Shown piece by piece: positions 54,233-61,470 of a DNA stretch of 64,000 bases; position 1 is the stretch's first letter, and each line of letters begins with the position of its first letter. Source of the stretch: Pseudobutyrivibrio ruminis CF1b (GTDB lineage Bacteria; Bacillota; Clostridia; Lachnospirales; Lachnospiraceae). Where the stretch lies: NCBI RefSeq assembly GCF_000424005.1, contig NZ_AUJB01000010.1, positions 186,001 through 250,000 on the forward strand, written 5' to 3'. The translations under genes and the position numbers were made by a program. Below the pieces are notes generated by a model. It ran no database searches and had not been told where the DNA came from. It saw nothing but the letters and a program-made list of their open reading frames with translations.

Positions 54233-54808
54233 ATGAACGAATTAGATGAGCGCTACACTACCTCTGAAGAGGCAATAATAGATTCTTTCTTTATACTTAG
54301 CAGTGAAAAGGAATTTGAAAAAATCACTGTTTCTGATGTGGTGAAAAAATCAGGTGTTGTTCGAAGCACATTTTATAATCATTATGAGAATGTTCCGGCA
54401 CTTTTATCGGCGGCTGAGGACAAGACAATTGATGATATATTTCAGCTTATGGAAAGCTTTCATCCAAAGGATGACCACCAGCTTTGCCATTCTTACTTTC
54501 TTGCAATCTGTAATTATACAAAGGAAAACAAGTTTCTGGCCAGTGTTCTTCACAGCCCAAGAGGTGACCGCTTTTTGGAAAAAGCCATGATGATGTTTCA
54601 CAAGTATGTAGCTAATGTAAGTCAGAGTGAAACAGTGCGCACTGGCAACCAACAGCACTTTTCTTATATGATAGCTGCCACAATCGGCTCAACGTTGGGT
54701 GTGCTACACAAATGGACAGCGGAAGCCTGTGAGACTCCCGCTGAAGAAATAGCTGATATTCTGACCTCAGTTTTCCTAAACGGCGTTTTGCCCTTCATGG
54801 AGAATTGA
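54233..54808 (+). CDS. TetR-family transcriptional regulator
   Basis: ATG 54233 follows AAGGGAGAAAG; an upstream in-frame start lies in the terminator. The 191-residue protein has the TetR helix-turn-helix (KITVSDVVKKSGVVRSTFYNHY) and an all-helical ligand domain. It overlaps the end of the convergent AMP-ligase gene by 33 bases. Whether it controls that operon is unknown. Confidence 0.88.
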   Translation: MNELDERYTTSEEAIIDSFFILSSEKEFEKITVSDVVKKSGVVRSTFYNHYENVPALLSAAEDKTIDDIFQLMESFHPKDDHQLCHSYFLAICNYTKENKFLASVLHSPRGDRFLEKAMMMFHKYVANVSQSETVRTGNQQHFSYMIAATIGSTLGVLHKWTAEACETPAEEIADILTSVFLNGVLPFMEN

Positions 54809-56332
54809 TGGATCATTTCTTTTAATTTTGCCAGTAGTGTTTCTAATGAATGGCTCAGTCCTGACTACCAGATTAGTGATATGTCGGTAGCTTGGCTGGC
54901 CATTATTATATTTATCAATATAATCCTGAAGCTCTTTGTTGATATCTATTGGATTCAGACACTGTCGTTGTGCATAATCCTCATCTGGATAGATGTTTGC
55001 TGTAAGACCAGTGTTGTTTCCAGTTACAATAACTTCTGCGATAAGCGGACTCAGAGCCAGCTTATTTTCAATTTCCTCAGGAGATATGTTTTCTCCATTG
55101 GACATGATGATTAGATTCTTTACACGACCGTTGATAAAAAGATAGCCATCCTTATCAAGGTAGCCTTTATCGCCAGTGTGAAGCCAGCCATCTTCAAGAG
55201 TAGCAGCAGTTTCTTCAGGCATTTTGTAATAGCCCTTCATGACACTTGTGCCTTTTACAAGAATTTCCCCATCCACAAATTTTATTTCAACATTAGGAAG
55301 GGGCTTTCCAATTGAGCCGGCCTTATGATTATCGACAGTGTTAGTGGTGATTACAGGGGAACACTCGGACATACCGTAGCCTTCGTAAATGTCTATACCA
55401 TATCTCTTAAACTCATCAATGTAAAACGGATCCAGATGAGCTCCGCCAGTAAAAATTATTTTGAGATTTCCACCAAATACTGTTTCATAAATCATTTCTG
55501 GAGAAAGGTCTTCAATGGCTGAAAGTCTTTTGTAGATAGATTCAATCATAAGGGGAACCATGAGGATTACCTTTGGTTTGAAAATACTTATATTTCTGAC
55601 CATGTGCATGAAGGAGTCATTGATACATACGATAGCCCCCAACGAAAAGCCCTTTAGCCAGTCCATAACAAGGCAGTAGGCGTGATGGATTGGAAGAACA
55701 CTCATCATGACACAGCCAGGAGACTCTTCATAATCCACGTTTTTTACATTGTCAAAAAGATTTCGCTGGGTGAGCATAACCCCTTTACTTTTTCCGGTGG
55801 TACCTGAAGTGAAGATGATGGTGGCTATAGAATCAGGGCTGGCTCCATTTACATCCGGCTTACCTTTGCCAAGGTCAATAAGCTCAGAGAGAACACCGAT
55901 TTTAGCATTAGGAATATTCTGCTCATAGGAATCCTGAAGGAGCCACATCTGACTAATCTTAGGGCATGACTGCAGGATAGGTTCAGCAAGGGAGATAAGC
56001 TTGGGGCTAAGGAAAAGAACCTGACAGTCAGCCCGATTAATCAGATCAATCAAGTCTTCCTGTGGAAGTAATGCATCTAAAGGAACTGCTATATTAGTAC
56101 CAGTGACAATACCAAGATAGCTGGCAATCCACTGGAGGCTGCTTTCACCAATGATAGCGATGTGGGCTTCTGAAAATCCTGTTGCGGCAAGGCCTGCGCG
56201 GATATTTCTAATTCGCTCATCGAGCTTACCATAGGTAGTGTCACAGACAGCTTTTTTATCAAGCCATCTTACAGCAGTCAGGTCCTGAAAGTTGGAAGCA
56301 GTATTGTCCCAGAGAGTTCTAAGATTTTCCAT
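54776..56332 (-). CDS. AMP-dependent acyl/aminoacyl ligase (adenylation enzyme)
   Basis: The 518-residue ANL enzyme has A3 motif FTSGTTGKSKG (174-184), A5-like YEGYGMSECSP, A7 LHTGDKGYLDKDGY, A8 FINGRVKNLIIMSNGENISPEEIE and the A10 lysine in TGKIKRND. The A8 form resembles fatty-acyl ligases more than amino-acid A domains. It sits last in an operon with a carrier protein and a condensation-type protein, so it probably loads an acyl (or amino acyl) group on the carrier Ser. Its ATG shares a base with the stop of a 26-codon ORF. Confidence 0.9.
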   Translation of the reverse strand: MENLRTLWDNTASNFQDLTAVRWLDKKAVCDTTYGKLDERIRNIRAGLAATGFSEAHIAIIGESSLQWIASYLGIVTGTNIAVPLDALLPQEDLIDLINRADCQVLFLSPKLISLAEPILQSCPKISQMWLLQDSYEQNIPNAKIGVLSELIDLGKGKPDVNGASPDSIATIIFTSGTTGKSKGVMLTQRNLFDNVKNVDYEESPGCVMMSVLPIHHAYCLVMDWLKGFSLGAIVCINDSFMHMVRNISIFKPKVILMVPLMIESIYKRLSAIEDLSPEMIYETVFGGNLKIIFTGGAHLDPFYIDEFKRYGIDIYEGYGMSECSPVITTNTVDNHKAGSIGKPLPNVEIKFVDGEILVKGTSVMKGYYKMPEETAATLEDGWLHTGDKGYLDKDGYLFINGRVKNLIIMSNGENISPEEIENKLALSPLIAEVIVTGNNTGLTANIYPDEDYAQRQCLNPIDINKELQDYIDKYNNGQPSYRHITNLVVRTEPFIRNTTGKIKRNDPSILHEGQNAV

Positions 56333-56412
56333 TATGAAACCTCCATCAAATTAGAGAATGCTTTTCCGGTCTTATCAAAAAATCTATACCAAATCCATTT
56401 AAGTAGCTTCAT
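56332..56412 (-). CDS. 26-codon ORF between carrier protein and ligase, coupled at both ends
   Basis: ATG (plus 56410-56412) overlaps the carrier-protein stop as TAATG and is served by AGGAGGTGG inside the carrier gene. Its stop (plus 56332-56334) overlaps the ligase ATG as TAATG, with GGAGGT inside its last codons. The product begins MKLLKWIWYRFFDKTGKAF and ends NLMEVS: an amphipathic, aromatic, basic helix. Exact double coupling argues that it is translated. It may be a peptide partner, like DltX in dlt operons, or a substrate; no homology is known to me. Confidence 0.65.
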   Translation of the reverse strand: MKLLKWIWYRFFDKTGKAFSNLMEVS

Positions 56413-56651
56413 TAGCCCACCTCCTGTAACTCCTGAATCATAGAAAGTGCTTCATCAATAGTACGAATCTGTATGATTTTATCCTGCTCCAGTTCCACAT
56501 CGAATTCATCTTCCAGTTCGCCGAGAAAGGACATGAAATCAAGGGAAGAGAAATCCAGGTCTTCTCGGAATCTGGCATTTCCACTAAGTTGATCAAGTGA
56601 TGTTTTGCTATATTGTGATACCAATTTCAAAAATTTTGCTTTTGTACTCAT
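56412..56651 (-). CDS. Stand-alone acyl/peptidyl carrier protein
   Basis: ATG (plus 56649-56651) follows AAAGGAGGA. The 79-residue protein has the carrier-protein core REDLDFSSLDFMSFLGELED, with Ser36 in the phosphopantetheine position (SSLD instead of the usual DSLD), and an acidic helix II. It would carry the acyl or aminoacyl group from the downstream ligase to the upstream condensation-type enzyme. The stop is 1 base within the next ORF start. Confidence 0.9.
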   Translation of the reverse strand: MSTKAKFLKLVSQYSKTSLDQLSGNARFREDLDFSSLDFMSFLGELEDEFDVELEQDKIIQIRTIDEALSMIQELQEVG

Positions 56652-56664
56652 ATTTAATCCTCCT

Positions 56665-58047
56665 TTACACTGCTGCCATAATTTCACCTACTGTGAGATT
56701 TGGTTGCTCAACACCTCTGAATATGATTCTCATAAGATAGTAGTTGAATAATTCCACGTGTTTCTCATTTAAGTCCGCTGTCTGATAGTGATATGAGAAA
56801 TTCATTCCACCATCCTCGGTATGTGAAACGGTAAGATACATCTTCTTTGTGGCAGCCCCATTGGCGAACCACTTTGAATGCATTGGAATGTCCTTCAGAT
56901 AAGGATTATCCATTTTGGCAGTCAGGGGCTGATATGTAAGGTAACAGCTTTCATAGGTGGTATTATCTGGTGTGTGATAGCGCTTCTTGATCTCGTCGTA
57001 TATCAGCTGTGGGTCATAGTTGGAATGAAGATATATCTGGTTTTGCATATCCTGTATTTCCTGAGCTGCCGAAAGAAAATCTGTGTTAGGACTGATTTTT
57101 GTTCGGCAAGGAAACATGATGGTGCGGCTACCACCGGAGGTCCACTCATCCTGAGTAGAACGTCTGGAAATAAAGTTTTGTATGGAAATATCTGTCTGCC
57201 CATTATTTACTTTTGAAAGATATGTACGCATCCCCAGAAGCAAAAGATTTGTCATGGAAATCTGATTGTTCTGGCAGAAATTATACAAAGTTTGCGAAGA
57301 GTCAGGGTCTAACTTGTAGTCTTCAACAGCCACAAATAAATCTTTAAGCTCAATATCAGCAGCTCTAAGATTTGGATTATTGTGCTTCCTGCGGGCTCTG
57401 TCCAAGGTGAGAGGTCCCTGAATATCGGAATAAATTGGTTCCCCCAGCTTATCTAAAATGTTGTCCCAGAAATTTTTATCACGTTGGAATCGTTTCTCAT
57501 TTTTGGTCTTAGACAAATCTTTTAACAGAACCTCTTCAAAATCTGCTAAATCCTCCGGCATTTCTGATCCAAATTTAAAATGGGTGTAGAGTGACATGAT
57601 GTCATTAGTCATGACCACCACTCCGCAGGAATCTATGAGCCTGTGATCCATATGAAGGAAGAAACCACGGTAACCTTCTGGAAGCTTTACCATAAAGATT
57701 TCAAACATAGGGATGTCATCACCGTCTATTGTTTTATAAGCCCATGACTGCATGGTCTTATCTGCTTCTTCCATTGTCATGTCTGATAAATCTTTCAGTG
57801 GAATTTCATAGGTTCCGGCCGAAGAGATATATTGTTTTATGTGTCCGTTGGAATCAGGCTTTGTAAATTGAACACGCATACAACTGTAGCGCTTGATTTC
57901 CATGCGAATGCATTTTTCTAAAAGAGTAAAATCAAGGTCAGCCTGTAATGATGCCACTATGCTTAGACCAGAGACCTGCTGTGTACCGTATTTACGAATC
58001 CACTGGTAATGCATATTTTGTGCAGCAGTTAATGGATATTTTTTCAT
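56665..58047 (-). CDS. Condensation-domain-like acyltransferase
   Basis: The 460-residue protein starts MKKYPLTAAQNMHYQW, the N-terminal core of NRPS condensation domains (LTxAQ). The catalytic motif HHxxxDG reads DHRLIDS (His135, Asp139): the catalytic second His and the Asp are kept, the first His and the Gly are lost. It may form an amide or ester between the carrier-bound acyl group and a free acceptor. ATG follows GGAGGGGAG. It opens the minus-strand operon, divergent from the LytTR regulator. Confidence 0.85.
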   Translation of the reverse strand: MKKYPLTAAQNMHYQWIRKYGTQQVSGLSIVASLQADLDFTLLEKCIRMEIKRYSCMRVQFTKPDSNGHIKQYISSAGTYEIPLKDLSDMTMEEADKTMQSWAYKTIDGDDIPMFEIFMVKLPEGYRGFFLHMDHRLIDSCGVVVMTNDIMSLYTHFKFGSEMPEDLADFEEVLLKDLSKTKNEKRFQRDKNFWDNILDKLGEPIYSDIQGPLTLDRARRKHNNPNLRAADIELKDLFVAVEDYKLDPDSSQTLYNFCQNNQISMTNLLLLGMRTYLSKVNNGQTDISIQNFISRRSTQDEWTSGGSRTIMFPCRTKISPNTDFLSAAQEIQDMQNQIYLHSNYDPQLIYDEIKKRYHTPDNTTYESCYLTYQPLTAKMDNPYLKDIPMHSKWFANGAATKKMYLTVSHTEDGGMNFSYHYQTADLNEKHVELFNYYLMRIIFRGVEQPNLTVGEIMAAV

Positions 58048-58208
58048 AAGCTCCCCTCCACATCAATTCTTTTCACAGTAAAATAGCACAGCATTTTTGT
58101 ATGTACCATAGGGGGAAGTAGTTAACGGACAGATTGGAATAAATTGTACAAGAGATATCAGACACTTTATTGAAATATGTTTGATATTGGCTAAGTAATG
58201 AATGTCGT

Positions 58209-58238
58209 TTGTCACATAAAATTGCAACTTGTCACATA
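58209..58238 (+). promoter_or_regulatory. LytTR operator, perfect 10-bp direct repeat
   Basis: TTGTCACATA occurs at 58209-58218 and 58229-58238, a 20-base period, ending 4 bases before the -35 box of the response-regulator promoter. Tandem half-sites two helical turns apart are the mode of LytTR/AgrA regulators. A related site with the same promoter offsets occurs at 60551. It may also act on the divergent operon. Confidence 0.75.
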
Positions 58239-58242
58239 GATA

Positions 58243-58343: not shown

Positions 58344-59063
58344 ATGTTTACTATAGCCATTTGCGATGATAGTCAAATGATACAGAGTGGTTTGTCTCAG
58401 TTCATAGATAGGGCCTTAGAAAATAAAAATACTGAATATGAGACTCTTACTTTTTCAAATGGTGATGAGTTATTTAGTTGGATTGATAATAACGACAGAG
58501 TAATAGAGCTATTGTTTTTAGATGTAGAAATGCCAGGAATGTCAGGTGTTGAAATCAAGTCTCAGCTGGAAAAAAATGACAAGGTTAAGCGAGTTGTTTT
58601 TGAAACCAGCCATTATGAAAATATGCAGGAAGCCTTTGGCGCAAAGGTAATTGGATTTATGTTGAAGCCTCTTAAATATGAGGATGTAAAAAAAAGAGTA
58701 GAAAATGCATTTGATGAATATACAGATGACATTCTTATTGAAATTTCTAAAGATATTTTTGTCAAAAAATCAGATATTAGCTTTATCAAAGCTGAAGGCA
58801 ATTATTGCGATTTTTATTGCGTTGATGGAAAAACTATAAAAGCAATCAGAAGCTCCTTATCATATTTTAAGAAGCTGTTAGGAGATACATTCATACGGGT
58901 TCACAAATCATATATTGTAAATGCCTATGACATAAAAAAGTGTGACAGATCCTTAGTAGCAATGTCGAATAATGTACAGATTTCAATTGGAAGAAGTTAT
59001 TTGAATTCATTTAAATCAGAATATAGGGCCATTGCTTTAAGTGTTGCCCAAGCAAGGTTTTAA
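58344..59063 (+). CDS. AgrA-like LytTR response regulator
   Basis: The 239-residue protein has a receiver (IAICDDSQMIQSGL; phospho-acceptor Asp60 in LLFLDVEMPGMSG; MLKPLKYEDV) and a C-terminal LytTR domain (KSDISFIKAEGNYCDFYCV; FIRVHKSYIVNAYDIKKCD; IGRSYLNSFKSEY). The LytTR domain should read the direct repeats in its own promoter. ATG follows GGTGGAGGAA. A peptide gene follows 39 bases on, then the AgrC-like kinase. Confidence 0.95.
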   Translation: MFTIAICDDSQMIQSGLSQFIDRALENKNTEYETLTFSNGDELFSWIDNNDRVIELLFLDVEMPGMSGVEIKSQLEKNDKVKRVVFETSHYENMQEAFGAKVIGFMLKPLKYEDVKKRVENAFDEYTDDILIEISKDIFVKKSDISFIKAEGNYCDFYCVDGKTIKAIRSSLSYFKKLLGDTFIRVHKSYIVNAYDIKKCDRSLVAMSNNVQISIGRSYLNSFKSEYRAIALSVAQARF

Positions 59064-59102
59064 TTTTATAATAATATATATTTTAAAGAGGAGGATAATG
59101 AA

Positions 59103-59159
59103 ATGGCAACATTAATGTACATCAATTGGGGCGGTATTTTCGACATTTTATTTGGCTAA
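59103..59159 (+). CDS. 18-residue hydrophobic peptide (candidate pheromone)
   Basis: ATG 59103 follows GAGGAGGA by about 8 bases and encodes MATLMYINWGGIFDILFG, ended by TAA and then a strong terminator. The whole unit (promoter region, regulator, peptide, terminator) lies directly before an AgrC-like kinase gene. The peptide has an internal Gly-Gly, no Cys, one Asp and hydrophobic ends; it is too short for a leader plus long core. A secreted or membrane-active signal that the kinase senses is the natural reading. It is absent from known families that I can recall. Confidence 0.65.
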   Translation: MATLMYINWGGIFDILFG

Positions 59160-59168
59160 AAAAGAAAG

Positions 59169-59202
59169 AGAGAAGACGAGGTGTTCGTCTTCTCTTTTTT
59201 TT
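59169..59202 (+). terminator. Terminator behind the peptide gene
   Basis: AGAGAAGACGA (59169-59179) pairs perfectly with TCGTCTTCTCT (59185-59195), 5-base loop, then T7. It makes the regulator-peptide RNA a separate, abundant unit with partial readthrough to the kinase. Confidence 0.93.
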
Positions 59203-59253
59203 ATATATTTGCTATCATGAAACGGAAATGGTAGTTTTATGGAGAGTAATGAA

Positions 59254-60528
59254 ATGGTATTAAATGAGCACTTTTGGGGACTTGCTTTGTTAATAGACTG
59301 TAGTTCCCTTTTGTTAACGTACATGATAGTGATGGGGGCCCGATTAAAATTCACTATTACAAGATCATTAATATATATTGCAGTATTTGTGACTAGTGTG
59401 ACCCTTATTGTTTTTCCTATTAATGATAATAATATAAGAGATATAATAGGAATTGTGTTTTTGATGCCAGTAGTTTTTCTTTTGGCAGGTAGTAAGAAAA
59501 AATGGATGGCTCTGTTTTTGCCCAACTTAGTTGCATTGTCAGTTGCTCAGACTATTTTTATCCCAACATTGAGCTTTGCCAAAGTAATTATGGGAAAAAA
59601 TGGATATAGTGCCTTTGTTAGTATAGTGGTTTTCATTCTCCTTTCGGTAGCATATTATTTCATACATCCAATTCAGGGTGCAGAACATGAATATTCTGTT
59701 GGACAGATAATTTTTTTGAATATTATTTCTGTATGTTTGTTTATTTTATTGGGAGAAATTCAGCGGTTTTTTAATACCAATACTACATATATTGGGATTG
59801 GAGCCAGTAAATTAATTCATAATGCAATGCTTGGCGCATGTGTTCTTCTTTGTATTCTTGCATTTTATTTGAGTGTTATAAAAGGAAGACTCGATGATGC
59901 AAAAAGAATAGCAGAAGAGAATGAGTTTTTGCTTAGAATGCAAAGTGAACAGATGGATACAGTCATTAAGAGTGAAGAGAAGCTTCATGCTTTTAAACAT
60001 GATTTAATTGCTCATTTAAATGCCTTATCAGGTTTTGCTGAGGAGGGAGATGTATCAAAGGTTAAAGATTATTGTGATAATCTTTTAACTGATACGGCTT
60101 CCTTTGCAAGAGTAGCATACACAGGAAATCCAGCTCTTGATGGGGTTCTCAATCAGCTTAAAGGCATGGCAAATGACAGCGATGTGGACCTGGATATTAG
60201 AATGACAGTTCCAAAGGAAAAGAAGATATCAGATTACGATCTTTGTATTATAACCTTCAATATCATCAAGAATGCTATTGAAGCAAATAGAGGTGGTGGA
60301 AAGGTAGAGATTAAGTCGTGGCCATTTAACGAGAATCTTTGTATCATTTCATCAAATACAACTACTCATTCATTGGAATATAAAAATGGTGTGCTGTTAT
60401 CCACAAAGCGGGAATATAAGGCTCCAGGATATGGTATGCGTAATATTCAGGCTGTAATTGATAAATATGATGGAGATTTCCAGATAAAAATGGACGGAGA
60501 TTTGGTAAAAGTAGAGGCGTTAGTATAA
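59254..60528 (+). CDS. AgrC-like GHKL sensor histidine kinase
   Basis: I prefer ATG 59254, 7 bases behind GGAGAG, over ATG 59239, which lacks a site. The protein of about 424 residues has six or seven membrane helices (to about residue 215), a coiled segment, the phospho-acceptor motif AFKHDLIAHLNAL (His249) and a GHKL ATPase (FNIIKNAIEANRGGG; GYGMRNIQAVIDKYDG). The polytopic sensor without a large external domain is typical of kinases for hydrophobic peptide pheromones. Confidence 0.92.
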   Translation: MVLNEHFWGLALLIDCSSLLLTYMIVMGARLKFTITRSLIYIAVFVTSVTLIVFPINDNNIRDIIGIVFLMPVVFLLAGSKKKWMALFLPNLVALSVAQTIFIPTLSFAKVIMGKNGYSAFVSIVVFILLSVAYYFIHPIQGAEHEYSVGQIIFLNIISVCLFILLGEIQRFFNTNTTYIGIGASKLIHNAMLGACVLLCILAFYLSVIKGRLDDAKRIAEENEFLLRMQSEQMDTVIKSEEKLHAFKHDLIAHLNALSGFAEEGDVSKVKDYCDNLLTDTASFARVAYTGNPALDGVLNQLKGMANDSDVDLDIRMTVPKEKKISDYDLCIITFNIIKNAIEANRGGGKVEIKSWPFNENLCIISSNTTTHSLEYKNGVLLSTKREYKAPGYGMRNIQAVIDKYDGDFQIKMDGDLVKVEALV

Positions 60529-60543
60529 ACCGCCTCTATTTTT
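60512..60543 (+). terminator. Terminator overlapping the kinase stop codon
   Basis: TAGAGGCG (60512-60519) pairs with CGCCTCTA (60531-60538), then TTTTT; the left arm is in the last codons. Confidence 0.85.
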
Positions 60544-60550
60544 GTGTCGT

Positions 60551-60613
60551 TTAACACATAAAAATGTTGTTGGTAACAGATTGATTGAGTTTTTATTTTG
60601 TGCACTGTACCAT
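60551..60613 (+). promoter_or_regulatory. LytTR-type promoter of the CPBP protease gene
   Basis: TTAACACATA (60551) and TGGTAACAGA (60571) match the 58209/58229 repeats at 8 and 7 of 10 positions, with the same 20-base period. TTGAGT (60585) and TACCAT (60608) sit at exactly the same offsets as the -35 and -10 of the regulator promoter. The block 60545-60566 matches 58203-58224 at 19 of 22 bases. It links the protease to the regulator. Confidence 0.7.
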
Positions 60614-60648
60614 GTTTATAGTTAGTAAACAAGAAGGAGAAAATAAAG

Positions 60649-61470
60649 ATGGATAAAACAGAAAACAAATCAGAGTTGATAAAATTAATTATCGTATATG
60701 CGGTAGACTTGGCAATTATGATAGGGCTTTCATATGCTCTTCCTAATCTGGCGCCTAATATGCCAATTATTGCTAAGGCTGCTTTAATATACATTCTTTT
60801 ACTTGTACCAGTTATTGTATATGCGATAAAGAAGGGCGATTGTACAGCAGAAGCTTTTGGCTTTAGAAAAATTAAGGTAAGCACTTTCTTCTTTACAATT
60901 CTTTTATCAATTGTAAGTGCACCAATGTATATGTTTGCAAATGTGCTGTCTCAGCTTGTTGTTCCAAACGTACTTATCCAGAACATGGATAATTTAATGG
61001 GAGATTCTATGGGGGCATCATTTATTGCGATGGCTGTTTTTGCACCTATAGCAGAGGAAATAATCTGCCGAGGATTTTTCACAAATAGATTAAAGAAAAC
61101 AGTTCCATTCGCAGCAGCTGCAGTTATTTCTGCTGTAATGTTTGGATTACTTCACTTAAATATTAATCAGTTCTGCTACACACTTGTACTAGGCATCATT
61201 TTTGCATATGTTAACAAAGCCAGCGGAAGTATTTTCACTTCAATTATCATGCATTTTCTTGTTAATGCTTCTAATATTGGAATCGTGCTTTTGGCTCAGA
61301 AGACACTACAGAATATGGGAATGGATTTGGCAGAGACAGCTGAAACTAGCCGTCAGAACGCCGGAGCAATGATTTTCGCAGTCGTATTCTACGGAATTTT
61401 GGCTATAATCTCATTTTTCCTTAGCCGTAAGGTAATAAGAGCTATCGCAAAACGCGAAGGAAATGAATAA
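60649..61470 (+). CDS. CPBP-family intramembrane metalloprotease
   Basis: The 273-residue protein has about eight membrane helices and the glutamic-protease motifs AEEIICRGFF (EExxxR), FGLLH (FxxxH) and HFLVN (HxxxN) of the CPBP (CaaX/Abi) family. Bacterial members process peptide signals or bacteriocins, or give immunity. The ribosome binding site is AAGAAGGAG. The LytTR-type promoter upstream suggests that it matures or degrades the 18-residue peptide. Confidence 0.92.
   Translation: MDKTENKSELIKLIIVYAVDLAIMIGLSYALPNLAPNMPIIAKAALIYILLLVPVIVYAIKKGDCTAEAFGFRKIKVSTFFFTILLSIVSAPMYMFANVLSQLVVPNVLIQNMDNLMGDSMGASFIAMAVFAPIAEEIICRGFFTNRLKKTVPFAAAAVISAVMFGLLHLNINQFCYTLVLGIIFAYVNKASGSIFTSIIMHFLVNASNIGIVLLAQKTLQNMGMDLAETAETSRQNAGAMIFAVVFYGILAIISFFLSRKVIRAIAKREGNE

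Follow-up and report, generated by a model that had tools for sequence, protein, structure and literature searches.

Which signal is perceived by the sensor kinase of this locus, and could it be encoded by the 18-codon ORF that lies between the kinase gene and the gene of a response regulator? To our knowledge, the signals of most such GHKL kinases are not known. The locus lies within a stretch of 64,000 nucleotides from Pseudobutyrivibrio ruminis CF1b, which was analyzed as a whole and is referred to as the window. A preceding sequence-only reading had described a LytTR regulator, an 18-codon ORF with a strong Shine-Dalgarno (SD) sequence and its own terminator, a GHKL kinase and a CPBP protease. 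This gene order was borne out by Pfam domains and by the sequence itself (Table 1).

Table 1. Features of the locus, with positions counted from the first nucleotide of the window.
Feature	Position	Strand	Evidence and remarks
LytTR-type operator TGTCGTTTGTCACAT...TTGTCACATAG	58203..58239	+	Candidate; direct repeat with 20-bp spacing, ahead of regulator-peptide unit
Response regulator with LytTR DNA-binding domain, 239 aa	58344..59063	+	Pfam Response_reg 7e-16, LytTR 4.5e-15
Ribosome-binding site AGAGGAGG	59087..59094	+	From sequence; 8 nt upstream of the 18-codon ORF
18-codon ORF MATLMYINWGGIFDILFG, proposed leaderless signal peptide	59103..59159	+	Same-slot ORFs in G008 and G022, related ORF in G004, family survey
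Predicted intrinsic terminator after peptide gene	59162..59202	+	Hairpin and T-run, -23.2 kcal/mol, z -4.9; same place in G008 and G022
Conserved TATTTGCTA(TCAT), extended -10-like	59206..59218	+	TATTTGCTA identical in three aligned genomes; possible kinase promoter, absent from consensus scan
Polytopic GHKL histidine kinase, 429 aa, proposed peptide receptor	59239..60528	+	Pfam HATPase_c_5 4.5e-12
Terminator-like hairpin after kinase gene	60506..60544	+	-17.2 kcal/mol, z -6.1; not picked up by consensus scan
Second operator copy TGTCGTTTAACACATAAAAATGTTGTTGGTAACAG	60545..60581	+	Candidate; upstream of CPBP gene
CPBP (Rce1-like) membrane protease, 273 aa	60649..61470	+	Pfam Rce1-like 4.8e-22; operator just upstream; probable regulator target

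The short ORF and its kinase in Pseudobutyrivibrio

ORFs of this size arise by chance at a low rate. Dinucleotide shuffling of the 175-nt gap in the window yielded an SD-preceded, ATG-initiated hydrophobic ORF of 12-24 codons in 44 of 3000 cases, and the orthologous gaps of the Pseudobutyrivibrio genomes G008 and G022 did so in 99 and 68 of 3000 shuffles. Both of these gaps hold an ORF of exactly 18 codons. A search of relatives for a short ORF in this slot had been suggested, and the recurrence of the coding frame there is supported. A fourth genome, Pseudobutyrivibrio G004, carries a 20-codon ORF just upstream of its regulator gene. Within two close pairs, 3, 0 and 9 changes fall on codon positions 1, 2 and 3, respectively. 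By these comparisons, the 18-residue peptide gene beside the sensor kinase looks real.

The peptide of the window has only 2-3 of 18 residues in common with those of G008 and G022, and the respective regulators are 63-64% identical. Between the same loci, the membrane half of the kinase is 27-30% and the kinase half 64-65% identical, and in a pair with peptides alike in 15 of 18 residues the two values are 79 and 94%. Judged by these identities, divergence of the membrane half of the kinase parallels that of the peptide. Outside the genus, the closest kinase detected (G369, 42-45%) has no short ORF passing the survey rule given below. An NRPS-like cluster upstream (54776-58047) was considered as a linked partner and rejected: it belongs to a backbone that three genomes have in common, and the regulator-peptide-kinase cassette is inserted at differing points of that backbone.

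The kinase had been called AgrC-like, which stands in a weak sense: the NCBIfam equivalog model of AgrC is matched with an E-value of 2e-6, but with 27 of 500 bits. The HATPase_c_5 match exceeds the Pfam cut-off, a sequence search of the PDB gave a single weak match (3d36, E 0.017), and a structure model built from three sequences reached a mean pLDDT of 40. Such kinases are frequent in the family, the profile being matched at 1e-25 in 315 of 397 sampled genomes. The LytTR domain of the regulator together with the 20-bp-spaced direct repeat is a feature of the AgrA type, the binding of this operator being putative.

Short ORFs beside GHKL kinases and their operators

For the survey, 151 distinct GHKL kinases of Lachnospiraceae and related bacteria were screened for an SD-preceded hydrophobic ORF of 12-24 codons at most 400 bp downstream of the kinase gene. 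Such an ORF was present at 25 kinases and absent at 126, compared with a mean of 3.5 and a maximum of 7 in 40 shuffles. The rule had been shaped on earlier loci; loci L147-L206 were first examined when it was applied. Among the loci of this set 9 of 44 passed, compared with none of the 44 when the reverse strand was read and 0 of 16 beside other genes (60 shuffles, mean 0.6, maximum 3). In this set, L147 has a kinase already present as that of L048, L181 shares 95% identity with L049, and the matches L165 and L177 are 84% identical to each other. A class-wide sample gave no rule-passing ORF in 19 regions (from 29 loci). Look-alikes at L129 (623 bp away), L160 (hydrophobicity 0.53) and L139 (28 aa) were not counted.

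Composition was determined for 26 peptides, for which L045 MVYLNYLPEYSI and L130 MRFMCIMKLYQK were left out as unlike and the peptides of the window, G008 and G022 were added. Trp accounts for 45 of 457 residues (9.8%), vs. 0.88% in the background and 2.3% in chance ORFs passing the same rule. Lengths range from 12 to 23 aa. Cys is absent from 24 of the 26, including the 18-mer of the window, which had been described as Cys-free. From its sequence and position, the peptide of the window appears to be one of a group of short peptides, rich in Trp and for the most part free of Cys, that occupy the AgrD slot of Lachnospiraceae GHKL/LytTR loci. In some loci, the group peptides precede lantibiotic, bacteriocin-like, other RiPP or secreted-protein genes; in four of them these are a lantibiotic gene (above the cut-off) and Clo7bot-, daptide- and class IIb-like genes (below it). 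Genes for a dedicated exporter or for processing do not recur among the loci, and the ABC transporters found near 8 of 24 loci are heterogeneous. PADLOC gave no matches, and such a peptide group is not described among the matches listed for the open-licence part of the PMC literature.

The first operator pattern was written with the site upstream of the CPBP gene in view, and the later tests were repeated without that site. Matrices built only from sites of other genomes (G008 and G022, or these and G004) were scanned across the window, and both ranked the site upstream of the regulator first and the CPBP site second, the latter scoring 19.2 with the three-genome matrix vs. 11.1 for the third-ranked site. 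With a matrix from G004 alone, the CPBP site came third. Throughout the genome, the plain TGTCACAT repeat has its only exact match at the site in the window, and looser matches number 45 vs. 24 for the reversed-pattern control. Among the survey loci, direct repeats of at least 9/10 between kinase and peptide show a spacing of 20 in 7 of 25 and of 21 in 4 of 25, which amounts to 11 distinct loci, compared with 5 in total for all 21 other spacings. Since kinases without such a peptide carry the same repeats, these do not single out the peptide. Additional operators elsewhere in 19 peptide loci are a weak signal (5 vs. about 1.6 expected by swapping). The autoregulatory-type operator and some two dozen similar loci strengthen the previously suggested signal-regulator logic at the level of sequence.

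The CPBP protease, in contrast, had been taken for a part of the cassette and did not prove to be a conserved one. Its gene does not adjoin the loci of G008 and G022 or the kinase of G004, and it is absent from every neighbor cluster common to at least three of 24 peptide loci. Because it shares its operator with the regulator-peptide unit, the CPBP gene is probably co-regulated as a target of the regulator, and the hairpin between kinase and CPBP indicates that it is probably a separate transcription unit.

Relation to Agr and other peptide systems

The locus resembles Agr (AgrBDCA) in its GHKL kinase and LytTR regulator, the peptide gene in the AgrD slot and the direct-repeat operator. AgrD or AgrD-like ORFs occupy the same slot in four sister loci, two of them matching AgrD of NCBIfam; they are 45-49 aa long, in contrast to the 12-23 aa of the family peptides, of which the seven with at least 20 aa gave no match in NCBIfam. 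The ring residue (Cys/Ser) and charged tail of AgrD do not describe the peptide of the window. As had been stated, no AgrB is encoded near the ORF, the genome containing a single marginal PF04647 match (23.8 bits) on another contig. In a PF04647 search of 23 carrier genomes (G004 left out), no peptide locus had an AgrB match less than 10 kb away on its contig, several of these contigs being so short that AgrB could lie beyond their end; the nearest was 12.9 kb away (G333:C23). In 11 of the 23 genomes AgrB was not found, three of these being less than 80% complete.

In ComCDE, Blp and related class II bacteriocin systems, a kinase/LytTR pair likewise controls bacteriocin genes by means of a peptide. 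Unlike ComC and BlpC, the family peptides are not composed of a double-glycine leader and a mature part. By eye, GG occurs at residues 10-11 of the window peptide, followed by seven residues, is missing in G008 and G022, and lies 1-4 residues from the C-terminus in L051, L126, L148 and L153 among the 26 peptides. A C39-type ABC exporter was noticed only at L237, together with double-glycine precursors of that locus itself. The streptococcal Rgg/SHP systems also use short hydrophobic linear peptides of about 20 codons, but these carry a lysine-rich leader and are received by the cytoplasmic Rgg, whereas the peptide proposed here lacks such a leader and its receptor would be a membrane kinase. 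In Staphylococcus aureus a CPBP protease of the MroQ type acts on AgrD, so that a protease of this family is tied to a peptide system there as well. The enzyme of the window, with 26 of 270 bits, is far below the cut-off for MroQ and looks like a regulated target.

Proposed mechanism and alternatives

We consider it fairly probable that the locus is a self-contained signaling cassette with a leaderless, AgrB-free peptide pheromone. The 18-residue peptide would be translated as is, without a leader, would presumably be mature in this form, and would leave the cell or enter the membrane by a general route. The membrane half of the kinase would serve as its sensor, and the GHKL kinase would then phosphorylate the LytTR regulator. 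The regulator, in turn, would bind the repeat at 58203-58239 and switch on its own gene and the peptide gene (positive feedback), and would also activate the CPBP gene via the copy at 60545; we infer activation rather than inhibition. The TATTTGCTA element possibly serves as a promoter of the kinase gene.

A peptide that is short, hydrophobic and leaderless, with no exporter common to the loci, could also be a small membrane protein that remains within its producer and adjusts the cell's own kinase through helix-helix contact. Coupling of the peptide and the membrane half of the kinase would be expected here, too. We regard this feedback modulator as unlikely, since a secreted precursor, AgrD, takes the same slot in sister loci, 6 of the 26 members have 12-16 aa, which is little for a helix crossing the membrane, and operons containing bacteriocin-type genes are in keeping with density sensing. 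The hydrophobic, Trp-rich composition and the placement of the peptide in some loci between the repeat and bacteriocin-type genes would likewise suit an effector under two-component control, such as a leaderless bacteriocin or a PSM-like surfactant peptide. In those loci, however, the bacteriocin/RiPP precursors are separate genes; the window has no obvious immunity gene, except possibly that of the CPBP protein, and the peptide diverges together with the membrane half of its receptor, which makes an effector improbable.

Slightly less credit still is given to a regulatory leader peptide that acts by attenuation or ribosome arrest, related to Trp, on the gene behind the terminator. This role fits the four Pseudobutyrivibrio loci as well, in all of which a terminator and, behind it, a kinase or regulator gene come after the ORF, and Trp codons occur in 24 of 26 loci checked. 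Unlike in Trp-type attenuators, though, only 6 of the 26 loci have a terminator in the 60 nt behind the ORF, and the Trp codons number 0-4, are tandem in 2 of 26 and are lacking in G004 and L090; Rfam gave no match. Length and hydrophobicity, together with a hairpin (59162-59202) that the consensus scan lists as a terminator for the minus strand, too, recall type I toxins with an antisense RNA, but the association with kinases and LytTR repeats renders this very improbable.

Beyond the single cassette with its leaderless pheromone, we lean, with a little less confidence, towards a widespread and undescribed pheromone class: leaderless, Trp-rich peptides, 12-23 residues long and mostly lacking Cys, used without AgrB or leader peptidase, at about one sixth of the sampled GHKL/LytTR receptor loci of Lachnospiraceae and relatives, and in part controlling bacteriocin-type operons. 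ORFs as short as 12-24 codons are usually omitted from gene annotation, and this would account for the group having gone unnoticed. If such peptides are the ligands, the signals of many kinases could be read from DNA, synthesized and tested, and synthetic peptides could switch on silent bacteriocin clusters. It would also raise the question by which route an unprocessed, leaderless peptide exits the cell. Trp-rich short peptides may serve as chemical signals between bacteria of the gut and rumen.

Anatomy and borders of the locus

All parts that the sequence-only reading had named, i.e., regulator, 18-codon ORF with its own terminator, GHKL kinase and CPBP (Rce1-like) membrane protease, are present in the window (see table). 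Shuffling the 175-nt gap 3000 times produced, in 44 cases, a hydrophobic ORF of 12-24 codons with an SD in front. Because the kinase and CPBP genes are separated by a hairpin resembling a terminator and by another copy of the operator, the locus, judged by its sequence, probably comprises two transcription units; there would be three if TATTTGCTA, which is conserved after the first terminator, belonged to a putative kinase promoter.

Coordinates of the features at the window locus and of additional ORFs
Feature	Sequence	Position	Strand
LytTR response regulator gene	window	58344-59063	
18-codon ORF	window	59103-59159	
Terminator of the 18-codon ORF	window	59162-59202	
GHKL kinase gene	window	59239-60528	
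CPBP protease gene	window	60649-61470	
Operator, regulator site	window	58203-58239	
Operator, CPBP site	window	60545-60581	
NRPS-like cluster	window	54776-58047	minus
26-codon ORF MKLLKWIWYRFFDKTGKAFSNLMEVS	window	56332-56412	minus
152/153-aa protein gene, G022	L033	10508-10966	
152/153-aa protein gene, G008	L032	6410-6871	
13-codon ORF MDIFWGIFAGGGH, window's genome	L035	5636-5677	
13-codon ORF MPVWLGGKGGGGH, G008	L084	5785-5826	

Kinase profile matches at 1e-40 were obtained in five of the 29 genomes searched within the genus, the window's own included. The proposed search for a short ORF in relatives of the kinase was successful in the Pseudobutyrivibrio genomes G008 and G022, where the order is regulator, ORF (MYYGLQGLDFSFIKWIFG and MYYGLQGIDFSFIKWFLG, respectively), terminator and kinase. 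In G004 the kinase is truncated by the contig end and the regulator, preceded by MFSPFVNLSVSFNSFFRLFF and a terminator, is located on a different contig; in the most distant genome, G012, the regulator-kinase junction leaves no gap for any ORF. The G008 and G022 ORFs differ by 2, 0 and 6 changes at codon positions 1, 2 and 3; summed with the pair L165/L177 of the surveyed kinase loci the changes are 3, 0 and 9 (six codons synonymous, four nonsynonymous). Between G008 and G022 the peptides share 15 of 18 residues, the membrane halves of the kinases 79% and the catalytic halves 94%, whereas the window shares with both only 2-3 of 18 residues, 27-30% and 64-65%, respectively. For these three sequences, peptide and kinase membrane half appear to diverge in the pattern expected of ligand and receptor.

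Window and G022 have a backbone of phosphoglucomutase, TetR, AMP-binding, carrier, condensation, MoxR, transglutaminase, 126-aa and 292-aa genes in common (names assigned partly by eye). In the window the condensation and MoxR genes flank the regulator-ORF-kinase block. In G022 its neighbours are the transglutaminase gene, together with a 152-aa gene, on one side and the 126-aa gene on the other; G008 resembles G022 as far as the kinase, beyond which two different genes lie. Of the cassette originally described, the regulator-peptide-kinase part is kept in relatives and, by sequence comparison, is the conserved unit, since the CPBP gene does not adjoin the kinase in G008 or G022 and thus drops out as a member.

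Before the regulator, G022 and G008 encode a 152/153-aa membrane-like protein, with the operator upstream of its gene; a family search gave no match above cut-off. Three Pseudobutyrivibrio genomes retain a compact NRPS-like cluster that consists of the condensation, carrier and AMP-binding genes. Between its carrier-protein and AMP-binding genes lies an SD-preceded ORF, which is identical in G008 and has one amino-acid change in G022, with few DNA changes, mostly synonymous.

Short ORFs beside GHKL kinases

Similar ORFs were found 66-333 bp 3' of the kinase in loci of related GHKL kinases. In a first set, a hydrophobic ORF of 13-24 aa followed 5 of 77 kinases, and eight such rows were obtained after 583 other genes: three are the window, G008 and G022 ORFs themselves, two (L035, L084) are located about 500-580 bp 5' of a different kinase-regulator pair, and the remaining three are L062, L098 and L099. 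Among the loci ranked nearest to known ones, 13 of 26 kinases had the ORF, four of them known already. The survey rule (SD-preceded, hydrophobic, 12-24 codons, within 400 bp downstream) then selected 9 of 44 kinases at loci first examined after it was written, two of the nine being orthologues of each other; controls gave 0/44 on reverse strands, 0/16 after other genes and a mean of 0.6 (maximum 3) in 60 shuffles. Over all distinct kinases the count was 25 of 151 (40 shuffles: mean 3.5, maximum 7). L071, from a different family within the same order, has such an ORF, and none was detected in 19 regions of a class-wide sample, all outside the order except L233. These counts are probably too low, because family look-alikes downstream of the kinase at L160 (MSTYSWEFWEWLKQFFK) and L139 (28 aa, MFNKFGKNFVLFEYDFWEWLCYILGINP) fall outside the rule.

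The composition was determined for 26 peptides (two poor survey matches dropped, three orthologues added) of 12-23 aa. Trp accounts for 45 of 457 residues and occurs in 25 peptides, against a background of 0.88% and 2.3% in chance ORFs that pass the rule. Two peptides contain Cys, and a loose pattern detects, close to the end of 19, a pair of hydrophobic residues together with Gly or Asn.

Genes after the peptide gene encode a lantibiotic precursor at L085 (Pfam Lantibiotic_a 1.2e-13, above cut-off) and, all under the NCBIfam cut-off, Clo7bot-type Cys-rich precursors at L090, a daptide-type metalloprotease at L051 (E 2e-38) and class IIb-like double-glycine precursors at L124; those at L126, L148, L153 and L165 look secreted by eye. 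The 13-codon ORFs of L035 and L084 both end in GGGH; at L035 the ORF stands between genes resembling an ATP synthase operon and a radical-SAM RiPP cluster (names by eye). Upstream of the L062 kinase, on the minus strand, the interval from ATP-synthase-like genes to the kinase-regulator pair contains a tandem array of three short ORFs, each preceded by an SD; two of the three are rich in Pro.

Putative operator sites

In the interval from the kinase stop codon to the peptide start, direct repeats matching at 9/10 bases or more have a spacing of 20 in seven and of 21 in four of the 25 loci, which makes 11 distinct loci, and the other 21 spacings in the range 13-35 total five. The two peaks recur among kinases without the peptide (13/126 and 18/126), which LytTR operators as a class would be expected to show. 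The best repeat reaches 10 or 11 of 11 bases in 12 of 19 peptide loci and starts 86-195 nt 5' of the peptide start; in the window it is located upstream of the regulator-peptide unit. On both strands of the window, a matrix built solely from the G008 and G022 sites gave its highest score (22.7) at the regulator site and its next highest (15.5) at the CPBP site, followed by 10.0 for the third-ranked position; with G004 added the scores were 27.1, 19.2 and, for the next site, 11.1. A stricter pattern with up to three mismatches hit these two sites alone (0.02 expected). A further pattern, composed with the CPBP site in view, matched exactly only at both sites in the whole genome; G008 and G022 gave a single exact match each, 5' of the regulator unit, and the G004 site was not matched.

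Relation to known systems and proposed mechanism

AgrD precursors occupy the peptide slot at L101, L061, L086 and L184; TIGR04223 confirmed two of them, and the other two were recognized by eye. In three of these loci AgrB lies no more than 1.3 kb away, and in the fourth the distance is 11.5 kb. Among 23 genomes with Trp-rich peptides AgrB was undetected in 11, three of which are less than 80% complete; in the window's genome the match is only marginal, and in the remaining carriers AgrB lies on a different contig or at least 12.9 kb off, a view bounded by contig ends in fragmented assemblies. The absence of AgrB from the locus, as first read, is consistent with this. The window system differs from Agr in both AgrB and AgrD features and was assigned neither to Agr nor to the double-glycine pheromones. 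The earlier impression that no system of this composition had been described agrees with the open-licence papers searched, where the matches listed contain no description.

Anatomy, recurrence, repeats and the lack of any AgrB detected nearby are supported by sequence, and the simplest account of them would be a pheromone loop without AgrB: the peptide would exit the cell, the kinase would sense it and the regulator would activate the regulator-peptide unit and further targets. Translation, export, binding, maturation and the sign of regulation are what we infer in this account. The strongest rival is a peptide acting as intracellular modulator. A leader peptide for attenuation agrees well with the Pseudobutyrivibrio loci alone; a terminator follows the ORF within 60 nt in only 6 of 26 loci and tandem Trp occurs in only two of 26. 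If the CPBP protease is indeed co-regulated, its role may be processing of the peptide, protection of the cell or an action on different substrates. The system would be a two-component peptide system of known kind, with an apparently new type of signal.
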